Shown piece by piece: positions 2,152 through 7,833 of a DNA stretch of 33,928 bases. The stretch is from positions 1 to 33,928 of the forward strand of contig MHGF01000034.1 in NCBI GenBank assembly GCA_001805445.1, read 5' to 3'. A model generated the notes under the pieces. That model did no database searches and was not told the origin of the DNA. It saw nothing but the letters and a program-made list of their open reading frames with translations. The translations under genes were made by a program, and so were the position numbers. This DNA comes from Omnitrophica WOR_2 bacterium GWF2_43_52 (GTDB taxonomy: Bacteria; Omnitrophota; Gorgyraeia; Gygaellales; UBA12090). Position 1 is the stretch's first letter, and each line of letters begins with the position of its first letter.

Positions 2152-3492
2152 CTATTGATAGATACTATAACTTTTTACTTCTTGTAACGGCCGATAGGAA
2201 AGTTTTACCTTTTTTAGATTATCCAAGTCCGAGATACCCATGCTATTAATGTACGTATATCCGTCTACTCTCCGGCAAAATTCCCTGAAGATAAACTGCG
2301 CAAGGCCTTTAAGCCTCAAATCGCATATCTCAAACAAAATACAAAACATCCCTTTATGCAGAGGATACCCGAATGAGCAGGCCTTAATCTCATCATCGAC
2401 TTTAACCACATACCCTCTTAACCCAATGTTGCGATAACTTTTCAAAGCCGCGTTAAAACTCACCATACTATCTTCTATCATCTGCTGATAGAGCGCGTCG
2501 TTATTTTCTTCTTTGCGCTTGGCCATCCAGAGATTATAGAGCCCAAGGCAATCCTTAAACATGGAAGGCCGATACGGGAGAAATTCCGCTCTCTTATAAT
2601 ACTTAGAGAAATGATTACAGCTTGCGCGCTTATGTTTATAGGTGTTACCTACCAATACCGCTAAATTCTTTCTTACGTAAATATATTCTGTATCTTTTAA
2701 TTTTACTTTAAAACCCGCGCGTGTGTAGGCTGCCAAATCTTTTTCATCTACATTCTCTATACGGCTGATTTCGCTGTTTTGATTATACCAATTCATTACT
2801 TCAAAGCATTTTTTAATGGCTTCAACGCTCACCTTGCCTAAAGGAGGCAAAATCATGAACATCCCTATCGCGTCCTGATAAAAAACGCATAGACTGTTTT
2901 CAATGATGGCCCATGAAATGTGAAATAAATCCTTCCAGATGTAAATATTCACGAAATGATATGCCGAGAGATTTGTGGTATGCGCGCGCAGATATTTATC
3001 AAACAGCGGTTTATCTTGAAGCGTAAGCCTTTTAAGCCGGGGTAGATACGCTTTTTTATAGAGTTCATTGAGCTCTGCGATTATTTCAACATCTCCCTGA
3101 TAATCCGCCGCAACATGAGGATTGCTTTTGATAAGAGATACAATACCCCGCGTCGATACTATTTTTTTCAAATAATCCGTATAGCCCCTGGTATCATGTA
3201 AGGAAGGTTTCTTTTCCTCAATAAAACAACAGCTTTTATGCAGGCCTAAAGATAAAGAGCTCCCTCTCTTTATCAATAAGAAAGGGTACAGTCGGCAATC
3301 CAAAGGGCGCTTCTTGTATATTTTGCAATGATTATCTGTCTCATTAAGATGGCTGCAGCGATATCCTTCATTATTTTTCACCAAACTACATCCTGCGGGG
3401 GCCCAAATCGTCGGGCTTTCGGCAAACCGGCAGCAGCCACGGCATTTCAGGCAATATGAGGAGGGAACAAACTGTTTTAACTCTGGCATCAT
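2152..3492 (-). CDS. YkgJ-type Cys-cluster domain fused to DUF2156 (GNAT-fold) domain
   Basis: 446 residues. The N-terminus (about 15-85) has the Cys pattern of the YkgJ/UPF0153 zinc-or-iron cluster family: CLKCRGCCRF, later Cys in AGCSLV, YRCSH, HCKIYKKRPLDCRLYPF. From about residue 150 it resembles DUF2156, the GNAT-fold domain of phosphatidylglycerol lysyltransferases: FDKYLRAH, HFVNIYIWKD, GNTYKHKRASCNHFSKYY, and a C-terminal GMFCILFEICDL block. The function of stand-alone DUF2156 proteins is mostly unassigned. A transferase using an aminoacyl or acyl donor is a family-based guess. There is no membrane region, unlike MprF. It begins MM with no good Shine-Dalgarno, and a hairpin at 3501-3531 lies directly upstream. 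Confidence 0.75.
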   Translation of the reverse strand: MMPELKQFVPSSYCLKCRGCCRFAESPTIWAPAGCSLVKNNEGYRCSHLNETDNHCKIYKKRPLDCRLYPFLLIKRGSSLSLGLHKSCCFIEEKKPSLHDTRGYTDYLKKIVSTRGIVSLIKSNPHVAADYQGDVEIIAELNELYKKAYLPRLKRLTLQDKPLFDKYLRAHTTNLSAYHFVNIYIWKDLFHISWAIIENSLCVFYQDAIGMFMILPPLGKVSVEAIKKCFEVMNWYNQNSEISRIENVDEKDLAAYTRAGFKVKLKDTEYIYVRKNLAVLVGNTYKHKRASCNHFSKYYKRAEFLPYRPSMFKDCLGLYNLWMAKRKEENNDALYQQMIEDSMVSFNAALKSYRNIGLRGYVVKVDDEIKACSFGYPLHKGMFCILFEICDLRLKGLAQFIFREFCRRVDGYTYINSMGISDLDNLKKVKLSYRPLQEVKSYSIYQ

Positions 3493-3531: not shown

Positions 3532-3562
3532 TGGCATTACTTTACCGCGCTGCCTTCCTTTG

Positions 3563-3589
3563 CGGGCGAACACGGGGGTTCGCCCCTAC
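3563..3589 (-). repeat. 27-nt GTAGGGGCG hairpin repeat, copy 2, supplying a stop codon
   Basis: This is the second copy of the hairpin seen in pabB, in the opposite orientation on the plus strand. Its GTAG end provides the TAG stop codon (3586-3588) of the isomerase fusion. The stem bases differ from copy 1 but pair, as expected for a structured mobile repeat. Confidence 0.75.
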
Positions 3590-5757
3590 TTTATTATACT
3601 CCCCACCTTCACCTCTCTCTGCGGGCTGATGACGCACAATCCGTTTTCATCAGAAGCGGCTAAAAGCATTCCGTTACTTTCCACGCCGCGGATAACTGCC
3701 GGCTCTAAATTAGTAATAACCGCAACTTGCTTGCCCACTAATTCTTCGGGCTTATAGGAATTCCTTATTCCGGCGACAATCTGCCTTTGATTATCCCCTA
3801 AATCAATCTTTAATAGATACAACTTATCCGCGTTAGGATGAAGATTCACCTCTATAATACGCGCTACCTTTATGTCTAATCTTCTAAACTCATCATATGT
3901 CACCATATTCCCTGCCTTGCCGGCCATCGGCTTCGCCGAGAGGCGAGCAGGCAGGCCTGCTTCGCTACCTTGTATGATTTTTTTGGTACTCAAAAGTGCG
4001 AATACCTTATCAAAGAATTCCTTTACCTCTTGTTCTGCTTCCCTCAAGCCCTTATCAACGGTAAGCAATACCACCCTGCGTTTATTCTCAAGAAGAGATA
4101 CCATTGTTCCTATGGCCTGTGCCTTTAAAAGATTCTCATCAAAGGCTAACGCCTGGGGTTGCTCTATGCTCTCTGCCATAACATAGGTAGAAAACCACAT
4201 ATCTTTTCCCGCTTCGATATTCTGATGATATGAATGGTTCTTGTCCGGGCCTTCTCCAAGCTTTGCCGGTAATTTTAATCCGCTGGTAAAAATTGTATAG
4301 CGTGCCTGCTCAAGAATAGTGTTTAGCCCTTGTGACATTCTCCCGTATGAGGTAAGTTCTACGGCTTCTAGTTTTGTTTTTTTATGTAAGACAGCCAATA
4401 TCGAAGCATACACCGCTATTGCGTCATCAAGATTGCCCGATTCTTTCTTAAGCTCGCTCTCTGTGATAATACCCGCCTCACACAGAGGGCTGTAATAAAG
4501 CTTAAGCCCTTTATATCCCGCATAATGCCACTCTTTCGGCACCCTAACTTCGCCCCCTACCTTCATCACCTCTTTCGTTGCCTTTTTATAACCTTCCACC
4601 GCGGGTTGATTCACAAAACATATATCCCAAAGATATCCAATTGCGGCAACTGCTCGTTGCAGCCCTAAAAGAATACCGCCGATAGAATTGATATCTTTAA
4701 TTTCTATTTCAAATAGAGGATACTTATTTGCCTCTAAATGTTTCCATAGCTCCTGCTCTGTTTTTTTCCCTGAAAGATTTATCCTAAAAAACACTCTGTC
4801 ATTTTGCGCGGCAGGTTTTAATTCTTTAGCTGAAAGCTTCTCCCCGTAAAAAAGGCTTATGCCTTTACCATCCTTACCTAATGATTCCTCCAGCAATTGC
4901 TCAAACCACGAAGGAAGGCTCTTTAATTCCTTGGGCACGAACATCGTCAACTTGTCTTTATTCTGGCGCGCGGCGTAATAATACAAAAACGCCCCGAGCT
5001 TTAAAAATATATCCAGCTGTATGTCTTTACACTCGTTCATTTCTTGTGCCGTGGTTAGAACAGCCTTTACTCTTTCCGGAGCAACGATAGTTAAAGGAAG
5101 AAGAAAAATATTTGTAGTTGGCGCGGTAAACCTTCCCCCGATATCGCCTTTGCCGTTAAGCTGAATTTCACGCTGAGGGTAATCGCCGGTATCCATTGGC
5201 GAACCTTTATCAGTTATTACCCACATATGCTTTTTTATATCAAGTGCCGATTTCTTATACAGCTCTTCAAAGTATTTTTTATGGGATACTGTTTCTATCG
5301 TGGTCCCGGATTTACTTATGGCAAGCACTAGCGTCTTTTCGAGCGCTTCTTTAAGCGAACCTGAAAAACCGCTTATCTCATCGAGTATTTCCTTAATTGC
5401 CTTAGGGTCAGTGGTGCGCAGGCTGTAGATTTTTACCCCTTTTTCGCCAAAGGTATCTTTTACCAGCTGTACACTTAAGCCGGAACCTCCCATCCCGCAG
5501 AAAACCACATAGCTAAAATGCTTTCGGATAGACTCTGCATCCTCGAGAACTTTTTCTACTGCCTGGTAGTTATCAAATATCCACGCAAGGTTCGATAGTG
5601 TCCATCCCAAACGGTTTTTGTCACCGTCAAAGCCAATCTTGGCCATTATAGGATTGGCTTCGGATTGAACTATTCCATAGGCAGTATTTACCTGCTCATT
5701 AAATCTTTCTTTCTTTAGCTTTTCTAAATAAATTTCCGGCGTTTCTTTTATGTCCAT
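3586..5757 (-). CDS. pgi: Phosphoglucose isomerase fused to a C-terminal tRNA-binding domain
   Basis: 723 residues. Positions 1 to about 600 form a SIS-fold phosphoglucose isomerase (glucose-6-P to fructose-6-P): FCGMGGSGLSVQLV, SKSGTTIETVS, GGRFTAPTTN and LPSWFEQLLEESLGKDGKGI. This is close to the large isomerase half of bifunctional transaldolase/isomerases. Residues 618-723 are an EMAP-II/CsaA/MetG-beta tRNA-binding domain: DIKVARIIEVNLHPNADKLY, KQVAVITNLEP, GVESNGMLLAASD. The join (about 595-617) is encoded by a GC-rich palindrome at 3911-3955. The Met at residue 618 (3904-3906) looks like the original start of a separate tRNA-binding protein. The frame is continuous, so either it is a real fusion or the second domain is also started internally. 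The gene has a strong AAGGAGG site and an extended -10 promoter, and is divergent from the helicase. Confidence 0.88.
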   Translation of the reverse strand: MDIKETPEIYLEKLKKERFNEQVNTAYGIVQSEANPIMAKIGFDGDKNRLGWTLSNLAWIFDNYQAVEKVLEDAESIRKHFSYVVFCGMGGSGLSVQLVKDTFGEKGVKIYSLRTTDPKAIKEILDEISGFSGSLKEALEKTLVLAISKSGTTIETVSHKKYFEELYKKSALDIKKHMWVITDKGSPMDTGDYPQREIQLNGKGDIGGRFTAPTTNIFLLPLTIVAPERVKAVLTTAQEMNECKDIQLDIFLKLGAFLYYYAARQNKDKLTMFVPKELKSLPSWFEQLLEESLGKDGKGISLFYGEKLSAKELKPAAQNDRVFFRINLSGKKTEQELWKHLEANKYPLFEIEIKDINSIGGILLGLQRAVAAIGYLWDICFVNQPAVEGYKKATKEVMKVGGEVRVPKEWHYAGYKGLKLYYSPLCEAGIITESELKKESGNLDDAIAVYASILAVLHKKTKLEAVELTSYGRMSQGLNTILEQARYTIFTSGLKLPAKLGEGPDKNHSYHQNIEAGKDMWFSTYVMAESIEQPQALAFDENLLKAQAIGTMVSLLENKRRVVLLTVDKGLREAEQEVKEFFDKVFALLSTKKIIQGSEAGLPARLSAKPMAGKAGNMVTYDEFRRLDIKVARIIEVNLHPNADKLYLLKIDLGDNQRQIVAGIRNSYKPEELVGKQVAVITNLEPAVIRGVESNGMLLAASDENGLCVISPQREVKVGSIIK
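3911..3955. repeat. GC-rich palindrome forming the linker of the isomerase fusion
   Basis: CCTGCC at 3911-3916 pairs with GGCAGG at 3950-3955, with an inner CGGC-TTC-GCCG stem. It encodes the Ala/Gly/Pro-rich linker between the isomerase and the tRNA-binding domain, and may have joined two genes by removing the stop of the first. Confidence 0.55.
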
Positions 5758-5904: not shown

Positions 5905-7833
5905 ATGATTTACGACCGTTTTCAGCAAGAAGCTATTGACTTTATTAATCAAGGGCATTCCGTTATTGTGTGCGCTCCCACAGGAGCCGGTAAAACCGCC
6001 ATTGCCGAACATGTCATTGAGCAATCGTTACACGCAAATCAAAAAGTAATTTATACCGCCCCTGTCAAAGCCCTCTCTAACCAGAAATTCCGCGATTTTC
6101 AGAAACAACATCCTGACAAAGTAGGCATATTGACCGGGGATGTTTCCATTAATCCTGACGCGCCGATTTTGATTATGACTACCGAGATATTCCGCAACAA
6201 AATCCTTGATGAGCCGCAATCACTTAAGAAATTTTCCTGGGTAATTTACGATGAAATTCATTATATCGACAATTATGAGCGCGGCACCGTCTGGGAGGAA
6301 TCGCTCATGCTCTTGCCTAATCATATCCGTATCGTAGGCTTGAGCGCGACTGTCCCTAATATAGAAGAGTTTAGCAGCTGGCTGGAATCAGTGCACAAAA
6401 CCCCGCTTAAAGTTATTATCGAGAAAAACCGCCCCGTTCCTTTACACTTTCGCTTTCAATGCCACAATAAAATCATCGATGATTTTAAAGAACTGCGACA
6501 TTTAAGTTTTAAAACAATCCGCTACTCCTATAGGGGAAAACGTTCCGAGTTTCATAAAGAGGCCCATCCCAACCGGCTCCAGACGATTATTCACACCATC
6601 CGAGATAACAACGAACTGCCTTGCATCTATTTTTGCTTCTCCCGCAGGCGCACTGAAGAATTAGCGCAAGAACTCTTTAATTTTGATTTTCTGGAAAACA
6701 CTGAACGCGATGAAATTATCCGCTTATTCAATGAGCTTATTCATCGCTTCGATCTAGCCCATGAGCCGAGTGCTTCACAGATGTACCCTTTGATCACCCG
6801 AGGAATCGCCTACCACCACGCGGGAATGCTTCCCACCTTGAAAGAAGTCATCGAGCAATTATTTACCTCCCGGCTCTTAAAGGTAATCTTTACTACCGAA
6901 ACCTTTGCCTTAGGGATAAATATGCCCGCGCGTTCGGTGGTTTTTGACGACTTAAGGAAATTTTACGGCAATTATGTGCGCAATTTAAAAACCCGGGACT
7001 TTTACCAGATGGCCGGCCGTGCCGGCAGGCGCGGCATTGACGCGGAAGGTTTTGTCTACAGCCGGATAAACTTCCATAAAATAGAGTTTGATGAAGTAAA
7101 GCGCATCATTTTTGGCGAGCCGGAAAGGGTTAACTCACAATTTAATACTTCCTATGCCACGCTCCTTCATCTTTACGAAAAATACCGGGATACGTTTTTA
7201 GAGATTTATCCGCTTTCGTATCACTTCTATCAGTCAAATATCCGTAAAAAAGAGGAGGCATATAACCTCCTTCGCCAAAAGATAAACTTTTTGAGAACCT
7301 TTGGTTATATTGAGAATACTGCCCTTAGCCCCAAAGGCATTTTTGCCTCAAGCATGTATGGTTATGAAATTATACTTTCCGAATTATTTGAACGCGGCCA
7401 TTTGGAGAATTTCAACGAAACTGAACTTGCCATTTTGATGGCGGCAGTAGTATTTGAACCGCGCAAGAATGATGAGCATCCAAAGCTTTCGCGCTCCTGC
7501 CGCAACCTCATGAACCTTACGGAAAATATTATGAAGCAAATCCTGCGCCAGGAGGAACGTTATAAAATCTATCCGGTGAGTAAAATGCCTTATTTTCATT
7601 TAGCCAATGCTGTCGAGGCATGGATTAAAGGCCAGCCGTTTAACAAGGCTTTGATGGAAACGACTGCCGATGAAGGCGAATTTGTGCGGTATTTGAGAAT
7701 GTCACACCAACTCTTGAGGGAAATTCTCGCAAACCGCCTGAGTTCGGAAACCCTCAAAGAAAAGGTACGCCATCTCATCCCTAAGATTAACCGTGATATT
7801 GTTGACGCGGAAAGGCAGTTACGCGCGGGTTAA
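5905..7833 (+). CDS. Ski2-like superfamily II helicase
   Basis: 642 residues, the only clear plus-strand gene. It has motif I APTGAGKT (residues 24-31), motif Ib region LSNQKFRDF, DEIH box (116-119), GLSAT (motif III, 145-149), TTETFALGINMPARSVVFDD (motif V region) and QMAGRAGRRG (motif VI). DEIH plus AGRAGRRG and the GINMPAR block point to the Ski2/Mtr4/Brr2 RNA-helicase group, which is uncommon in bacteria. A remote DNA role (Hel308-like) is possible. It probably unwinds structured RNA or RNP using ATP in the cytoplasm. The C-terminal 250 residues are helical and lack an obvious KOW/arch domain. It converges with the STAS-PilZ gene with only 3 nt between stop codons and no terminator between them. 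The -10 is so close to the ATG that translation is probably leaderless. Confidence 0.88.
   Translation: MIYDRFQQEAIDFINQGHSVIVCAPTGAGKTAIAEHVIEQSLHANQKVIYTAPVKALSNQKFRDFQKQHPDKVGILTGDVSINPDAPILIMTTEIFRNKILDEPQSLKKFSWVIYDEIHYIDNYERGTVWEESLMLLPNHIRIVGLSATVPNIEEFSSWLESVHKTPLKVIIEKNRPVPLHFRFQCHNKIIDDFKELRHLSFKTIRYSYRGKRSEFHKEAHPNRLQTIIHTIRDNNELPCIYFCFSRRRTEELAQELFNFDFLENTERDEIIRLFNELIHRFDLAHEPSASQMYPLITRGIAYHHAGMLPTLKEVIEQLFTSRLLKVIFTTETFALGINMPARSVVFDDLRKFYGNYVRNLKTRDFYQMAGRAGRRGIDAEGFVYSRINFHKIEFDEVKRIIFGEPERVNSQFNTSYATLLHLYEKYRDTFLEIYPLSYHFYQSNIRKKEEAYNLLRQKINFLRTFGYIENTALSPKGIFASSMYGYEIILSELFERGHLENFNETELAILMAAVVFEPRKNDEHPKLSRSCRNLMNLTENIMKQILRQEERYKIYPVSKMPYFHLANAVEAWIKGQPFNKALMETTADEGEFVRYLRMSHQLLREILANRLSSETLKEKVRHLIPKINRDIVDAERQLRAG

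Follow-up and report, generated by a model that had tools for sequence, protein, structure and literature searches.

The window analyzed here, a stretch of 33,928 nucleotides from a contig of Omnitrophica WOR_2 bacterium GWF2_43_52, carries a reading frame in which a phosphoglucose isomerase (PGI) is followed by a tRNA-binding domain of the methionyl-tRNA synthetase (MetRS) type. The locus raises the question of whether the two halves form one protein, how they came together, and what a tRNA-binding domain would do on a glycolytic enzyme.

Architecture of the fused gene

ORF translation yielded 723 codons without a stop on the minus strand, from position 5757 to 3586. The unbroken frame joining a PGI to a tRNA-binding domain, as described in the initial annotation, was borne out by the ORF, by the Pfam and TIGR00399 profiles, and by relatives. 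The window ORF is a genuine in-frame fusion of PGI with the MetRS C-terminal/beta tRNA-binding domain, and this real, conserved fusion brings two familiar domain families into a combination that is new here. The EMAP-II-like OB domain is previously known on synthetases and scaffolds, and no fusion of PGI or another glycolytic enzyme with a tRNA-binding domain or MetRS was found in open-licence papers. The features of the locus are listed in Table 1. The downstream gene (positions 2152-3492) encodes a 446-aa protein with a CxxCxxCC-type part and LPG_synthase_C; in G033 (locus L041), the two parts seemingly form separate neighbouring genes behind the beta gene.

Table 1. Features of the fusion locus in the window
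Feature	Position	Strand	Evidence
Fused PGI-MetRS beta domain gene, 723 aa, TAG stop at 3586-3588	3586..5757	-	ORF, family profiles, orthologous fusions
PGI module, aa 1-596, transaldolase/PGI type	3970..5757	-	PF00342, NF007080, PDB 1zzg, alignment of 14 homologues
Linker, aa 597-617	3907..3969	-	Alignment to G003/G006, codon comparison
45-nt palindromic repeat, 15 codons (aa 600-614), in-frame insert; missing from the three other fusions	3916..3960	-	
Internal ATG (Met618); stand-alone beta genes start at the homologous codon	3904..3906	-	
MetRS beta/EMAP-II-like tRNA-binding OB domain, aa 618-723; sole PF01588 match in genome	3589..3906	-	
Second dispersed hairpin repeat across stop codon; arms 3564-3571 and 3578-3585	3558..3590	.	
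Downstream neighbour, conserved: CxxCxxCC (below Pfam cut-off) + LPG_synthase_C protein	2152..3492	-	
Upstream neighbour, conserved, divergently transcribed: DEAD/DSHCT helicase	5905..7833	+	

The PGI half

The front half is a divergent PGI. In the Pfam profile search, PF00342 matched residues 79-296 with 26 bits against a cut-off of 22, and the best profile was the PGI half of the transaldolase/PGI model NF007080 (1.4e-51). The latter match covers profile positions 424-943 of 949 and does not reach the equivalog cut-off (175.4 bits versus 712). The module scores modestly on PF00342 and under every PGI equivalog cut-off. Among solved structures, the Thermus PGI 1zzg was the best match. The segments GGSG, SKSGTT-ET, GGR, ESLGK, and QPAVE-K, the phosphate-binding and catalytic motifs of PGI, align with 1zzg and 3ifs; the catalytic His has no secure placement. 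Core PGI residues are invariant across an alignment of 14 homologues. The predicted structure, built from 8 input sequences, is weak, with a mean pLDDT of 59.9, values below 50 for residues 597-723, and an uninterpretable beta part; with this model, the top Foldseek matches were PGIs (6otu, E 8.7e-13), at a query TM of 0.39.

Within residues 384-512, a conserved NHSYHQ (residues 507-512) follows QPAVEGYK, and a weak counterpart in 7e76 (-1.4 bits) precedes that motif. A subdomain order rearranged relative to 7e76 is possible, as a lead from the alignment.

This PGI type also occurs in giant open frames. L028 (G056:C35, 83,666 bp) is a whole contig with one open frame of 27,888 aa, and L029 (G045:C6, 52,332 bp) is a whole contig with one open frame of 17,444 aa. 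The stretch read of L028 contains phosphoglucomutase-like pieces, the PGI type of the fusion, and a second, canonical PGI; that of L029 contains a UDP-glucose pyrophosphorylase-like piece and the same PGI type. The two may possibly be giant sugar-phosphate polyproteins. Giant ORFs in Omnitrophota, with adhesion-type domains among the few annotated ones, are described in the accessible part of PMC10066038, the main text of which does not contain the term "glucose-6-phosphate isomerase."

The beta domain and its probable MetRS partner

At the C terminus, PF01588 (tRNA_bind) matched residues 629-720 with 103.2 bits (cut-off 27), and TIGR00399 (metG_C_term) matched residues 614-723 with 122.2 bits (cut-off 116.65). 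In profile searches, the fusion was both the only PF00342 and the only PF01588 match in the genome, which is 94% complete, so that a second PGI or beta copy could be missing from the assembly. Neither metG (a 516-aa frame) nor PheT (a 677-aa frame) has a PF01588 match. The absence of the C-terminal domain from MetG, raised in the initial annotation as a point to verify, was confirmed in the window organism and holds for 12 of the 13 genomes searched, with frames of 353-526 aa (the 353-aa frame begins at a contig end); the 13th gave no match. With the sole PF01588 and PF00342 matches in the fusion, and no such domain in MetG or PheT, the most economical interpretation has the beta domain acting in trans for MetRS and the front half working as the cell's PGI. 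The stand-alone beta homologues presumably serve MetRS in trans as well.

The residues that contact tRNA in Trbp111 were compared with 28 members of the order. In the window domain, K33, S82, and M85 are kept, while R75 is replaced by Ala and F78 by Arg; the full set of five that marks a Trbp111-type binder of the tRNA 3'-CA end is thus not retained. The S82 and M85 equivalents are kept in all 28 sequences, and the K33 position is Lys or Arg. The Arg75 position is Ala (23 sequences) or Val (5 sequences) in every member examined, fused or not; human EMAPII likewise has Ala there. The R75A exchange, at the Arg most important for tRNA binding in Trbp111, nearly abolished binding, according to the accessible part of PMC11286949. 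Given the replacement of this Arg in every sequence, binding of the tRNA 3' end may be weak. The fusion protein may have a tRNA-linked second role, as the initial annotation suggested.

The same fusion in related genomes

In a search of 58 genomes, G003 and G006 showed the complete architecture (residues 1-723) with 71% identity; G008 has the same fusion, interrupted by masked bases. The fusion-bearing Omnitrophota records are CAKKRH010000012.1, JAUSCZ010000012.1, and DOMD01000012.1 (taken as G006, G003, and G008), and all three genomes belong to another genus (g3) of the window organism's family. Four further members of the family (G002, G005, G007, and G004) have a stand-alone beta gene at this site, flanked by the same helicase and LPG-type genes, and no PGI is present there. 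The separate genes that the initial annotation proposed to look for at this locus were therefore found in part: the beta gene stands alone in these four relatives, but in none seen is PGI a separate neighbour.

A survey of 128 genomes of the order (E ≤ 1e-25) returned 4 with the fusion, 100 with a separate beta gene, 2 with PGI alone, and 22 with nothing. The separate beta genes are open frames of 105-262 aa. All four fusions fall in the window's family, represented by 9 genomes; G001, from the window's genus and 65% complete, gave no match. At E ≤ 1e-40, a survey of 384 genomes of the phylum revealed no further fusion; weaker PGI and beta matches are hidden at that threshold, which leaves room for fusions with other PGI types.

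Phylogenies were calculated for both halves. The fused beta domains form one group (support 96/73) in a tree of 28 of the order's beta sequences, three of them fused; G008, with its domain interrupted by masked bases, was not included. The fused PGIs form one group (support 100/99) in a tree of 19 sequences, four of them fused. Both trees are compatible with a single origin of the fusion. The host-gene tree, based on 5 genes in 10 genomes with gaps for several genes in several genomes, did not group the two fused genera. With the five-gene data, the tests lean against this grouping (AU p = 0.0285; KH and SH 0.069), and in a two-gene host tree the fused genera formed one group in 14% of bootstraps. 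Since the host-gene trees do not group the fused genera, a single transfer, or a later disappearance of the PGI part from g2/g5, must be allowed. The presence of the stand-alone beta gene in the same slot, with the same neighbours, indicates that the beta gene was there first and that PGI was added at its 5' end.

Probable function of the fusion protein

We consider it probable that the gene is an inherited fusion that combines PGI and a trans-acting MetRS beta subunit in one protein, with the linker repeat a secondary addition; the functional part of this reading is deduced from gene content. Synteny and trees suggest that, in an ancestor within the family, a PGI frame ended up immediately 5' of a stand-alone MetRS beta gene that was already present, and that an in-frame join followed. 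The product would supply the PGI of the cell, for which no second gene was detected, and the C-terminal OB domain would likewise be the one detected trans-acting beta subunit, providing tRNA binding and dimerization for a MetRS that lacks its own. Known relatives of the PGI part and of the beta part are dimers, so a single dimer could combine the two functions. A beta domain on the only detected PGI, and the sole such domain in the genome, would tie sugar metabolism to Met-tRNA charging.

A serious competitor, though one to which we give less than even weight, is a neutral run-on: the lineage would tend to join frames, drift would maintain the fusion, and the two domains would work independently, with the tether meaningless. 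Of the order's 13 matches to this PGI type outside the fusions, 9 are located within open frames of 1,210-27,888 aa, and repeats do enter frames in this genome. However, the fusion was kept across two genera at 71% identity, the junction is open in all four fusions, and the 45-nt insertion preserved the frame.

Somewhat less likely, the ORF may give two products, with free beta also made from Met618 and doing the MetRS job, and the fusion partly a by-product. The Met618 start is kept in all four fusions, and anti-SD pairing before it (-5.7 to -8.1 kcal/mol) exceeds the means for in-frame ATGs (-3.4 to -4.3; 14 ATGs per complete ORF in three ORFs, the internal start itself included). However, pairing is stronger both at four stand-alone beta starts, where it reaches -8.8 to -10.2, and at three PGI starts, with -11.6 to -12.4; certain other ATGs within the ORFs equal or beat Met618 (down to -10.2), and the SD-like run in the window lies only ~3 nt from the ATG. 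Met618 could thus act as a separate start, as initially proposed, but with a weaker ribosome-binding site than in the stand-alone relatives. The 13 codons preceding Met618 also bear on this reading. Between G003 and G006, their 4 differences are all synonymous (0 non-synonymous), and comparison with G008 gives 4.5 non-synonymous and 3.5-4.5 synonymous changes. In the G003/G006 pair of the sister genus, a small sample, the junction looks to evolve as coding sequence, which counts against the two-product reading.

An extension of the preferred reading makes the fusion an indispensable component of the MetRS holoenzyme, with two PGI units mounted on the MetRS beta dimer, and appears unlikely. If true, the synthetase responsible for charging both initiator and elongator tRNA-Met would physically bear a glycolytic enzyme, which may tune it by the sugar-phosphate level.

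The linker repeat

The linker does contain a GC-rich palindrome, noted in the initial annotation, which belongs to a dispersed repeat with nine further matches in the genome, giving ten copies; two extra matches of 14-15 bases were counted as chance. No repeat copies of note were found when the fusion gene region was searched internally. Aligned to G003 and G006 and compared codon by codon, the window linker is longer by exactly 15 codons, all of which belong to the palindromic repeat. In G003, G006, and G008, the linker runs from the end of PGI directly into MVTYDEF, with no repeat in any of the three.

The proposal that the repeat itself fused two neighbouring genes draws on its dispersal in the genome and its presence in the linker. 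It is contradicted by the three fusions without the repeat, and the exact match of the repeat to the 15 additional codons and the lack of any separate PGI neighbour at the locus in the relatives seen make such an origin highly improbable. The three fusions lacking the repeat make it the later arrival, inserted into a gene that was already fused; the exception would be a traceless loss in the common ancestor of those three genomes. The second hairpin repeat does contain the TAG (3586-3588), as had been noted. However, the relatives' protein ends at the same residue, and this repeat therefore did not set the C terminus. An assembly or binning artefact, conceivable because all fusion-bearing genomes are draft metagenome genomes, is ruled out for practical purposes by the same join with conserved flanks in four separately binned genomes.

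Four of the ten copies lie in long open frames: the fusion gene; SecA and DapF, both assigned by Pfam; and a 584-aa frame without a Pfam match. In dapF (L011:1365-2294 (+), G000 C23) the repeat is in-frame, and the residues it encodes are missing in eight of eight relatives, including G001 from the same genus. In secA (L010:1355-3025 (-), G000 C22) it is read in another frame, between the wing/scaffold domain and the SEC-C motif.

Repeat-like peptides were also observed at other sites. PheT (L107 / G000:C34:130272-130823) contains a repeat-like RRTMDEGRRTKDDGRW stretch. The peptide NPPLTKGRWGGVRNP / NSPLTEGRRGGVGNP lies in-frame inside the PGI of L024 (G003) and L030 (G008) and is lacking in the window and G006.

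Comparison with known systems

Rickettsia palindromic elements are described in the accessible part of PMC10969869 as dispersed elements of ~150 bp inserted in-frame in protein genes. The window repeat is likewise a dispersed palindrome found in-frame in conserved genes (dapF, fusion linker), but it measures 45 nt and occurs in another phylum, and the likeness noted is one of behaviour. As part of the preferred explanation, the linker repeat would be a separate insertion resembling these elements, adding just 15 residues. It would represent a case of such a repeat entering coding frames in Omnitrophota, polarized by relatives for the linker and dapF, with the secA copy in addition.

The nearest PGI relative of the front half is the bifunctional transaldolase/PGI (NF007080), from which the window protein differs by lacking the transaldolase half and by scoring below the equivalog cut-off. 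In alpha/beta MetRS, the catalytic partner is a core without the beta domain, and the MetRS core of the window organism is likewise without it. The C-terminal half matches the MetRS C-terminal domain and the stand-alone beta protein Trbp111 over its full length (PF01588, TIGR00399; 1mkh, 1pyb, 8vtz). Those domains stand alone or sit on a synthetase; the window domain is attached to a glycolytic enzyme, and its Arg75 equivalent is Ala. Arc1p, AIMP1-EMAPII, and the aaRS-OB fusions resemble the window protein in placing the same OB domain on another protein for tRNA handling (PMC11286949, accessible part). In that part of the source, however, the partners are synthetases or scaffolds, whereas the partner in the window is a sugar isomerase.
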